A stretch of DNA of 64,000 nucleotides from Halobellus salinus (GTDB taxonomy: Archaea > Halobacteriota > Halobacteria > Halobacteriales > Haloferacaceae): contig NZ_BMOC01000015.1 in NCBI RefSeq assembly GCF_014646875.1, forward strand, positions 1 through 64,000. The letters are read 5' to 3'. The notes below the pieces were generated by a model. The model ran no database searches and was not told where the DNA came from. It saw nothing but the letters and a program-made list of their open reading frames with translations. Position numbers and translations under genes: made by a program. This document shows, piece after piece, positions 57,912-60,782 of this stretch. Numbering within the stretch: position 1 is the first letter of the stretch; every line of letters begins with the position of its first letter.

Positions 57912-58637
57912 TCACACCGGAACCACGCCCACGACCGCAACCCCGACGAGCCCGGCCGTGACGGCAAGTCCGACGGCGTCGGCCCGGCCGAACCGGAGTT
58001 CCGGAAGCGTCGGGTTCCACGCGAAACACCGCGCCCGGAGCGCGAGCGCCAGTTGGTCGGCCCGCCCCAACGCCCGTCGGATCCCCGCCGCGGCGACGAC
58101 CGTCATCCGATCTCTCAGCCCCTGTTCCCCGCCCACCCGGGCTGCCGACGCGTCCCGGACCCGTCGGAGATCCGCCCGCAACAGGGGGAGAAACCGGAAT
58201 ACGAGCGCCACGCCGACCCCGAGGAGCCGGCCCGGACGGCCGGGCACCAGCCGTTGGATCGCCGCCCGGGACTCCCTGACCGGCGTTGTGTGGAGGTAGA
58301 CCGCCGAAACGGCGAGCACGAGCAGGACCCGGTAGCTCGCAAGCACCGGGCCGGTCGCCGCTCCGGGGTCGACGCCGACGCTCCACGGCCGGATCTCAAC
58401 GACCGAGACAACCGGCCCAGCGACCAGAAACGGCAGCGCGGGGAGGTAGCCTCGGATCGCATCAACCGGAGAGAGCCGCCCGGCAGCGAGGAACACGGCC
58501 GCGACGAGCGTGAACCCGGCCAGTCCACGGGGCGTGGTGTAGACGAACGCCGCAGCGGCGAAGGCGGCCTGCGCCAGCAGTTTCGTCCGCGGGTCGAGCC
58601 GGTGGGCGAGGGAGTCGCCAGGGGTGTAGCTCAGCAT
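57912..58637 (-). CDS. bioN: ECF transporter T component of the biotin importer
   Basis: The 241-residue membrane protein is a CbiQ/EcfT type. It starts SYTPGDSLAHRLDPRTKLLAQAAFAAAAF and carries the coupling-helix arginine motifs AARVGGEQGLRDRM (about 175) and ALRARCF (about 210). It binds the ATPase and the substrate subunit BioY. It overlaps the ATPase gene by seven bases. Together with BioM and BioY it imports biotin. Confidence 0.88.
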   Translation of the reverse strand: MLSYTPGDSLAHRLDPRTKLLAQAAFAAAAFVYTTPRGLAGFTLVAAVFLAAGRLSPVDAIRGYLPALPFLVAGPVVSVVEIRPWSVGVDPGAATGPVLASYRVLLVLAVSAVYLHTTPVRESRAAIQRLVPGRPGRLLGVGVALVFRFLPLLRADLRRVRDASAARVGGEQGLRDRMTVVAAAGIRRALGRADQLALALRARCFAWNPTLPELRFGRADAVGLAVTAGLVGVAVVGVVPV

Positions 58638-59407
58638 CGTCGGTCCCGTGGTGCCGCGTCCGACGACCCGTCCCCGTCGGGGCCGGCGCTCGTCGACCCA
58701 CACGCCGGATCCGGAACCCGAACCCCGTACGCCGGCAGCGATGCGGCCGCCTCGTCGGGCGGTGCATCGACGACGACCCGGCCCTCGGCCATCGCCACGA
58801 CCCGATCCGCGAGGTCGAGCACGTCCCGGAGGTCGTGGGTCACGATTACCAGTCCCGTGCCCGAGGCGCTGAGTTCCCTGAGTCGGTCGACGACGGACGT
58901 CCGCGCCGGCGCGTCGAGCCCGGTGAACGGCTCGTCGAGGACGAGATGATCCGGCTCCATAGCGAGCGCGCCGGCGACCGCGACCCGCTGGCGCTCCCCG
59001 CCGGAGAGTTCGCCGACTCTGACACCCTTGCGCCCGTCGAGGTCCACTGCCGACAGCGATGCCGCCACGCGGCGGTCGATCTCCGCGCGACCGAGTCCGA
59101 GGTTCTCCGGCCCGAACGCCACGTCGGCGCCGACGGTGGCGGCGACGAGTTGGTCCCGCGGCTCCTGGAACACGATACCGACGGCGGTCCGCGCGGCGAC
59201 GAGATCCGCTCCGACGCGGCGACCGTTCACCTCGACTCGGCCCTCGTCCGACTCCAGCAGCCCGTTGAAATGGCGGACCAGCGTGGTCTTCCCGGACCCG
59301 TTCGCGCCCGCGAGCACGACGCATTCCCCGTCCGGGATCGACAGCGACACGCTGTCGACTGCGACGACGTCGCCGTAGCGGTGGACGAGGTTGACGGTCC
59401 GGATCAC
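58631..59407 (-). CDS. bioM: ECF transporter ATPase of the biotin importer
   Basis: The 258-residue ATPase has Walker A VLAGANGSGKTTLVRHF (about 31-47), Q-loop GIVFQEPRDQLVAATVGADVAFGPENLGL, signature VGELSGGERQRVAVAGALA and Walker B HLVLDEPFTGLDAP, with switch IVTHDLRDV. It powers BioN-BioY. The start is GTG (59407). Its last residues overlap bioN, and bioY lies 28 bases upstream; all three form one operon. Confidence 0.9.
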   Translation of the reverse strand: MIRTVNLVHRYGDVVAVDSVSLSIPDGECVVLAGANGSGKTTLVRHFNGLLESDEGRVEVNGRRVGADLVAARTAVGIVFQEPRDQLVAATVGADVAFGPENLGLGRAEIDRRVAASLSAVDLDGRKGVRVGELSGGERQRVAVAGALAMEPDHLVLDEPFTGLDAPARTSVVDRLRELSASGTGLVIVTHDLRDVLDLADRVVAMAEGRVVVDAPPDEAAASLPAYGVRVPDPACGSTSAGPDGDGSSDAAPRDRRC

Positions 59408-59435: not shown

Positions 59436-60017
59436 TCAGGCCGCCGCGGCGGCGTCGCTCCGGACGATCCCCACAGCGGCGGCGATCTTCACCGCCTCAA
59501 CGGGGACGAACGCAACCGCGCTCACCACGAACGCCTCGACCAGCCCGACGTCCTGGACCACGGCGAACCCGACGGTCCCCAGCGCGTAGATCACGGCAGT
59601 CCCGGCGACCATCGCTGTCACGAGCCGGACGGTCCGGACTGCCTCCGGGTCTGCAAGCCCGTCGAACCCGTGGACAACGGCCCCGACCAGCGCCGCCGCG
59701 ATCGGGTACGACCAGAGGAAGCCCGCGGTCGACCCAGCCAGCGGGCCGAGCCCCGCCGATCCGCCCGCGAAGACCGGCGCGCCCGCCGCCCCCGCGGCGA
59801 GGTAGAAGGTCAAAGAGGCGCCGCCCCAGACGGGACCGAGGAAGATCCCCGCGAGGAACACGCCCAACACCTGGAGGCTCACCGGGACCGGCGAGACCGG
59901 ATTCGGGAACGATACGTACGCGAACGCGCCGGTGAGCGCCGCGAACAGCGCCGCGCGCGCGACGTTGCCCGCGACCTCCTCCCCGACGAGCTCGACCGTC
60001 TCCGTCTCTGTCGCCAT
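59436..60017 (-). CDS. bioY: Biotin-binding subunit BioY
   Basis: The 193-residue S component has six helices. The BioY signature GAFAYVSFPNPVSPVPVSLQVLGVFLAGIFLGPVWGGAS (about 30-68) and TFYLAAGAAGAPVFAGGSAGLGPLAGSTAGFLWSYP are complete, including the polar residues lining the biotin site. It is the first gene of the bioY-bioM-bioN operon. The promoter sits in a BirA-like operator (60033-60060). Confidence 0.95.
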   Translation of the reverse strand: MATETETVELVGEEVAGNVARAALFAALTGAFAYVSFPNPVSPVPVSLQVLGVFLAGIFLGPVWGGASLTFYLAAGAAGAPVFAGGSAGLGPLAGSTAGFLWSYPIAAALVGAVVHGFDGLADPEAVRTVRLVTAMVAGTAVIYALGTVGFAVVQDVGLVEAFVVSAVAFVPVEAVKIAAAVGIVRSDAAAAA

Positions 60018-60032
60018 ACCGACACCAACCTC

Positions 60033-60060
60033 GTAAACCTGTTTTAATCGTTCGGTTTAC
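60033..60060. promoter_or_regulatory. BirA-type biotin operator over the bioY promoter
   Basis: GTAAACC (60033-60039) and GGTTTAC (60054-60060) are perfect inverted halves 14 bases apart, the known consensus of the BirA operator, TTGTAAACC-N14/15-GGTTTACAA. The spacer contains GATTAAAAC on the minus strand, centred about 28 bases before the bioY ATG, so the operator brackets the TATA box. A biotinyl-AMP-bound BirA would block TBP. Confidence 0.85.
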
Positions 60061-60101
60061 CACAGCAACATTTGTAGGTCACGCGCCCGTGCCCCTCAAC
60101 T

Positions 60102-60782
60102 ATGGACGAAAAGACCGCCGACCTCCGGGACCTCTTCGTGGAGACCACCGGCGAGGAAGCGGTGACCGAGTCCCAGACCGCCGCTCGCGGGTCGCTGTCG
60201 GCCGGAGACGCCGACGACGACGCGGTCGACGAGCGGCTCGCGGCCATCGTCGGCGAGATGGCCGATCGCGACGGGTTCGATTCGAACCTCCCCGAATCGG
60301 ATCTGTGTCGCGTGGTGCGGGCGTTCTTCGACCCCGACACCGACGCTGCCGGTCCCGCGACGTGGTCCGCAGCGGCCGACGCGGCGGTGGCGGAGTCGCT
60401 GTCGGCGGATGTCGACGCCGACGCGGTGTTCCGCGCCCGACTGGATCTCCACCTCGTCGCCGAGGCCGACCGCGATGCGCCGGTCCCGTACGCCGACCTC
60501 CGGGCACTCGTCTCCGAGGCGTCTGCACCCGACGAGCCGGCTGCCGCCGACGACGGGGCGCTCGCGGCGGCGCTTCCGGAGAGCGTGGAGCCGGAGACGG
60601 CCAGTCGGTGCCGCCGGGTCGTTGCGGCCGACCTCGCCTCCCGGCGGGTGAACCACCGGTACCGCGACGCGTTCGCCGATCTCCTCACTGACGCGGAGAT
60701 ATCCACTCGTCTCGCTGCCGACGCCCGCCGCGACGGCCTCGAGGAAGCCACCGAGGACCTCGAGACCGACGTGTCGCTGTAG
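60102..60782 (+). CDS. cmi4: Conditioned-medium-induced protein 4 family (Cmi4-like)
   Basis: The 226-residue acidic protein starts MDEKTADLRDLFVETTGEEAVTESQ and has DLCRVVRAFFD near residue 68 and VFRARLDLHLV near 108, matching the haloarchaeal Cmi4 family as I remember it. The whole protein is helical and hydrophilic without enzymatic motifs. The family name derives from induction by spent medium in a haloalkaliphile; function is unknown. It is divergent from bioY and may share the intervening region and its operator. Confidence 0.65.
   Translation: MDEKTADLRDLFVETTGEEAVTESQTAARGSLSAGDADDDAVDERLAAIVGEMADRDGFDSNLPESDLCRVVRAFFDPDTDAAGPATWSAAADAAVAESLSADVDADAVFRARLDLHLVAEADRDAPVPYADLRALVSEASAPDEPAAADDGALAAALPESVEPETASRCRRVVAADLASRRVNHRYRDAFADLLTDAEISTRLAADARRDGLEEATEDLETDVSL

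Follow-up and report, generated by a model that had tools for sequence, protein, structure and literature searches.

A candidate BirA operator merged with the archaeal core promoter of a biotin importer operon in Halobellus salinus

What controls the biotin importer operon of Halobellus salinus? In the window, by which we mean the whole 64,000-nucleotide stretch of DNA that was analysed, genes matching PF02632, PF00005 and PF02361 lie consecutively on one strand, the arrangement of a BioY-type ECF transporter, and the nearest named relatives of this bioY are found in Halobellus species (Table 1). Directly before bioY, GTAAACCTGTTTTAATCGTTCGGTTTAC occurs exactly at 60033-60060 as two perfect inverted 7-mers around a 14-base spacer, just as a first-pass annotation of this DNA had described, and 15 bases separate the end of the repeat from the bioY ATG. 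We propose that a biotin-responsive repressor, namely the group II BirA encoded in this genome, uses this site as its operator, a reading that is drawn from comparative sequence analysis and to which we assign a probability of about 0.88.

Table 1. Positions of the features discussed, numbered from the first letter of the window.
Feature	Position	Strand	Basis or remark
BirA-type operator, GTAAACC-N14-GGTTTAC	60033..60060	.	Exact match; unique in the window and in the genome; conserved at related bioY loci
bioY, S component of ECF biotin transporter	59436..60017	-	PF02632, E=3.6e-35
bioM-like A component (ECF ATPase), probable operon partner of bioY	58631..59407	-	PF00005; nearest TIGR04520/TIGR04521, below their cut-offs
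bioN-like T component of the ECF transporter (CbiQ family), probable operon partner of bioY	57912..58637	-	PF02361, E=5.9e-17; start set at MLSYTPG
BRE-like CGAA of the bioY promoter, which overlaps one operator half at its inner edge	60051..60054	-	C(G/A)A(A/T) conserved in 85 aligned bioY operators; BRE motif of PMC4983044
TATA-like TTAAA in the operator spacer	60043..60047	-	Columns 14-18 are TTNAW in bioY operators, not in bioB operators
Divergent ORF called cmi4 by the first-pass annotation; probably outside the regulon	60102..60782	+	No Pfam/NCBIfam match; homologues in 18/18 genomes searched
TATA-like TTTGTA of cmi4, outside the operator	60071..60076	+	31 to 26 bases before the start; T-rich columns -31 to -29 in 45 loci

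The published BirA operator consensus is TTGTAAACC-[N14/15]-GGTTTACAA (PMC545781), and the site before bioY agrees with it at 7 of 7 positions in each half. The first-pass annotation had equated both the halves and the spacing with those of the known BirA operator, which holds for the published N14/15 consensus but not for the N16 spacing of E. coli. The halves of E. coli bioO, which lies beside bioA, are identical to those of the source operator (GTAAACC/GGTTTAC), but they stand 16 rather than 14 bases apart at a bacterial promoter, and their target is biosynthesis rather than import. In relatives of the source organism, the halves extend to TCGTMAACC...GGTTKACGA, with outer flanks of TC/GA in place of the TT/AA of the published consensus. 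Sites from delta-proteobacteria, such as TTGTcAACC-[N14]-GGTTgACgA (PMC545781, Table 1), closely match the haloarchaeal GTMAACC-N14-GGTTKACGA.

The operator occurs once in the window, where shuffled sequences gave an expectation of 0, and once in the whole 3.07 Mb of the genome when the spacer may be 14-16 bases long; the reversed control pattern occurs 0 times. A scan of the source genome that tolerated up to three mismatches turned up no other convincing target, the best other match having two mismatches. Contig C8, which carries birA and its carboxylase, has no operator match within three mismatches, so autoregulation of birA is not indicated.

The first-pass annotation had made the presence of a BirA with an N-terminal helix-turn-helix a key check on its proposal, and such a protein is encoded in the source genome. 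It is a group II BirA of 316 aa (G000:C8:100789-101736) with an HTH_11 domain (E=1.6e-9), a BPL_LplA_LipB catalytic domain and a C-terminal BPL_C domain. In phmmer comparisons, it matches E. coli BirA over nearly the full length, and its alignment with S. aureus BirA includes the HTH region. The gene before birA encodes a biotin carboxylase-BCCP protein, in which EAMKMEN forms the biotin acceptor motif. A literature search found no paper on haloarchaeal BirA regulation. The genome also encodes a second BPL/LplA/LipB-family protein (G000:C14:45341-45679; PF03099, E=1.5e-9), which is probably a lipoate ligase.

Upstream of bioY in related species, the operator is conserved across the order, contrary to the outcome that the first-pass annotation would have taken as refuting its proposal. 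In 68 bioY loci (60 distinct) drawn from Halobellus, Haloferax, Halogeometricum, Halorubrum, Halomicrococcus and others, it recurs with a spacer of 14 bases in nearly all cases, 14-15 bases before the start codon. A larger set of 114 bioY loci, extending to distant families, was compared with GTMAACC-N14-GGTTKAC; 66 loci had 0 mismatches, 30 had one, five had two and 13 had at least three, which places an operator with at most one mismatch at 96 of the 114, almost always 14-15 bp ahead of bioY. The 13 most divergent loci had no good operator in the stretch scanned, and some of these genomes encode BirA. Across 293 Halobacteriales genomes, the pattern was present in 170 and its backwards control in about five. 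The spacing also varies by lineage, as six genomes of one family (f14; loci L172, L173 and L242-L245) have a 13-base spacer at bioY. Elsewhere in the phylum, pattern matches alone reveal similar sites, mostly one per genome, with controls near zero. These phylum-wide sites agree with the archaeal BirA sites reportedly predicted by Rodionov, Mironov and Gelfand (Genome Res 12:1507, 2002) in their account of the BirA regulon of Bacteria and Archaea.

We then considered where the operator lies relative to the bioY promoter. Haloarchaeal promoters have a BRE of CGAAA and a TATA element of TTWT, and 72% of the protein-coding transcripts of H. volcanii are leaderless (PMC4983044). In the window, the minus-strand GATTAAAAC begins at 60049, within the operator spacer, and the centre of its TTAAA, at 60045, is 28 bases before the bioY start. 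The first-pass annotation had pointed to a minus-strand TATA-like sequence in the spacer at about this distance, and an alignment of 85 distinct bioY operators backs it. The aligned spacers are non-random, starting with C-R-A-W (the BRE-like CGAA) and reading TTNAW in columns 14-18, and the TATA centre is 28 nt upstream of the start codon. With BRE and TATA both inside the 14-bp spacer, operator and core promoter form one element; at bioY, the candidate BirA operator is merged with an archaeal core promoter, as judged from the aligned sequences. Given this position, bound BirA should exclude TBP and TFB from the bioY promoter.

Relatives of the source organism carry second operator sites, most of which mark a gene identified as the biotin synthase gene bioB (TIGR00433, above cut-off). 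In relatives that make biotin, the operator thus stands at bioB as well as at bioY, and a haloarchaeal biotin regulon is confirmed by this second, independent target. Three other matches (G114:C1:946391, G097:C1:3035232 and G142:C1:2996642) lie within or beside unrelated ORFs, look like chance and were rejected as targets. At bioB, the operator was found in 67 of the 68 loci examined, which come from L135-L164, L212-L241 and L261-L271 of other haloarchaea, and its right half forms codons 1-3 of the gene, (A/G)TG-GTT-(T/G)AC. Five genomes have GAC rather than TAC as codon 3, which changes the amino acid while respecting the T/G column of the operator, and this pattern suggests constraint on the DNA rather than on the protein. 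Downstream of bioB, the next gene (L129, L115, L119) has as its best NCBIfam match BioU, the (S)-8-amino-7-oxononanoate synthase (NF047886; E ~1e-94 to 1e-99), below the curated cut-off.

The bioB TATA (wTTAw) lies 28 nt before the start and upstream of the operator, and the bioB operator spacer is without the BRE and TATA columns. The same operator is therefore placed in two ways against one promoter geometry, at bioY and at bioB. We lean towards the view that one operator blocks two different steps: at bioY, where BRE and TATA are in the spacer, bound repressor would exclude TBP and TFB; at bioB, where the operator is shifted ~24 bp downstream and its right half supplies the first three codons of a leaderless gene, start codon included, it would block RNA polymerase or initiation, and part of the operator would also be protein-coding. 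One f14 genome, G057, has both bioB (L160) and bioY, and both of its operators have the 13-base spacer, a match that recognition of the two by a single protein would predict.

Could a palindrome of this form have arisen without a repressor to read it? A TATA-like box does sit within the spacer, and the repeat might on that account be a chance occurrence or a pure core-promoter feature, an AT-rich TATA with accidental flanking repeats. The conservation data already refute this, and we put its likelihood at practically nil: the halves are near-invariant across the order, shuffles are expected to yield none and the backwards control stays near zero, and the same halves recur at bioB in a different position relative to TATA. 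It is also conceivable, though very unlikely, that the palindrome is bound by another haloarchaeal transcription factor, not BirA, that senses biotin or some other signal. Bacteria do have other biotin regulators, BioR and BioQ, and the binding of haloarchaeal BirA to the operator is predicted only; against such a factor, the half-site does not differ from the BirA consensus (PMC545781) or from the 7-base half-sites of E. coli bioO, the genome's BirA carries an HTH, and birA and the operator are absent together.

This joint absence is seen across the genomes sampled. The operator was found in 0 of 18 BirA-less genomes versus 170 of 275 with BirA (hypergeometric p=8e-8, a naive value that overstates the evidence because the 18 BirA-less genomes span only about five genera), and at least 12 of the 18 are without bioY among those listed. 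In genus g61, the sole sampled species with birA (G212) has both bioY and the operator; four congeners have neither birA nor the operator, and one of them, G109, is without bioY among those listed. As a separate observation, thirteen near-complete haloarchaeal genomes (G003, G012, G039, G075, G109, G119, G143, G195, G198, G221, G262, G271 and G277) have no BirA match and no operator; they also have no BioY among those listed, and may not use biotin at all.

If BirA is the regulator, as we favour, the switch would operate as follows. When biotin is plentiful and its acceptor, the BC-BCCP product of the gene that immediately precedes birA, already carries biotin, BirA bound to biotinyl-5'-AMP would dimerise and occupy the inverted repeat; bound BirA would keep TBP and TFB off the leaderless bioY promoter, shutting down bioY-bioM-bioN. 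When biotin is scarce, BirA would be consumed as a ligase and leave the DNA, and the importer would be made. The corepressor, dimerisation and repression roles assumed here are inferred from bacterial BirA. No bioB was found in the source genome by a query that recovers the gene from over 100 sister genomes, so the BirA regulon of this genome is probably the bioYMN importer operon alone. Since it lacks bioB, the source organism probably depends on imported biotin, and we predict that it requires an external supply.

How does this arrangement compare with known systems? It is of a known kind, a BirA-type regulon for which archaeal sites were predicted in 2002, and it shares with the BirA regulon of Bacteria and Archaea the same halves, an N14 spacer within N14/15, an HTH-containing BirA and biotin genes as targets. 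Unlike the published regulon, the haloarchaeal operator is merged with BRE and TATA at bioY, and at bioB it takes in the start codon. Three features are new within the literature that could be searched: conservation across the order, a spacer that holds BRE and TATA, and an operator placed over the bioB start codon. Haloferax (genus g6) has the operator at bioY and, in several species, at bioB as well; members of this genus are genetically tractable, and where both operators are present, TBP exclusion and start-site block could be compared under one repressor. A vitamin switch that is compact and open to testing is thereby extended over a whole archaeal order; in it, a bacterial-type bifunctional repressor would fit a TBP/TFB promoter by having BRE and TATA inside its operator. 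A similar layout is found in Lactococcus lactis and Streptococcus suis, where a group II BirA likewise has a predicted site over the bioY core promoter, and gel-shift tests have been reported for the L. lactis BirA-bioY switch (PMC4861984, PMC4877710). In those bacteria, however, the promoter is of the sigma type with -35 and -10 elements, rather than one for TBP and TFB, and the L. lactis half-sites read GTTAACC.

Finally, we asked whether the operator also controls cmi4. The first-pass annotation had this ORF starting divergently 42 bases past the operator, which is borne out by the 41 bases that lie between the operator and its start, and had suggested that it might be co-regulated with bioY, which fared less well. 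Were the suggestion correct, bioYMN and cmi4 would be a co-regulated divergent unit, and it is true that about three quarters of the unique loci have cmi4 and bioY in divergent orientation and that in several Halobellus the operator edge is 41-42 bases from the cmi4 start, beside the cmi4 BRE region. However, the gap between operator and cmi4 ranges from 41 to 137 bp across 42 loci, whereas the cmi4 TATA keeps a fixed distance outside the operator, as expected of a promoter of its own; 15 of the 60 distinct loci have no adjacent cmi4, and most of these retain the operator. Moreover, cmi4 lies apart from bioY in 13 of 18 genomes, and 0 of these 13 have the operator in the 300 bases upstream of it. 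The variable gap and the siteless, non-adjacent copies lead us to reject co-regulation as a conserved trait, and we consider joint control of bioYMN and cmi4 unlikely. The cmi4 product has no family match in Pfam or NCBIfam, and a literature search found no paper on cmi4 as such. In the Halobellus species with a 41-42-bp gap, some cross-talk between the operator and cmi4 is possible.
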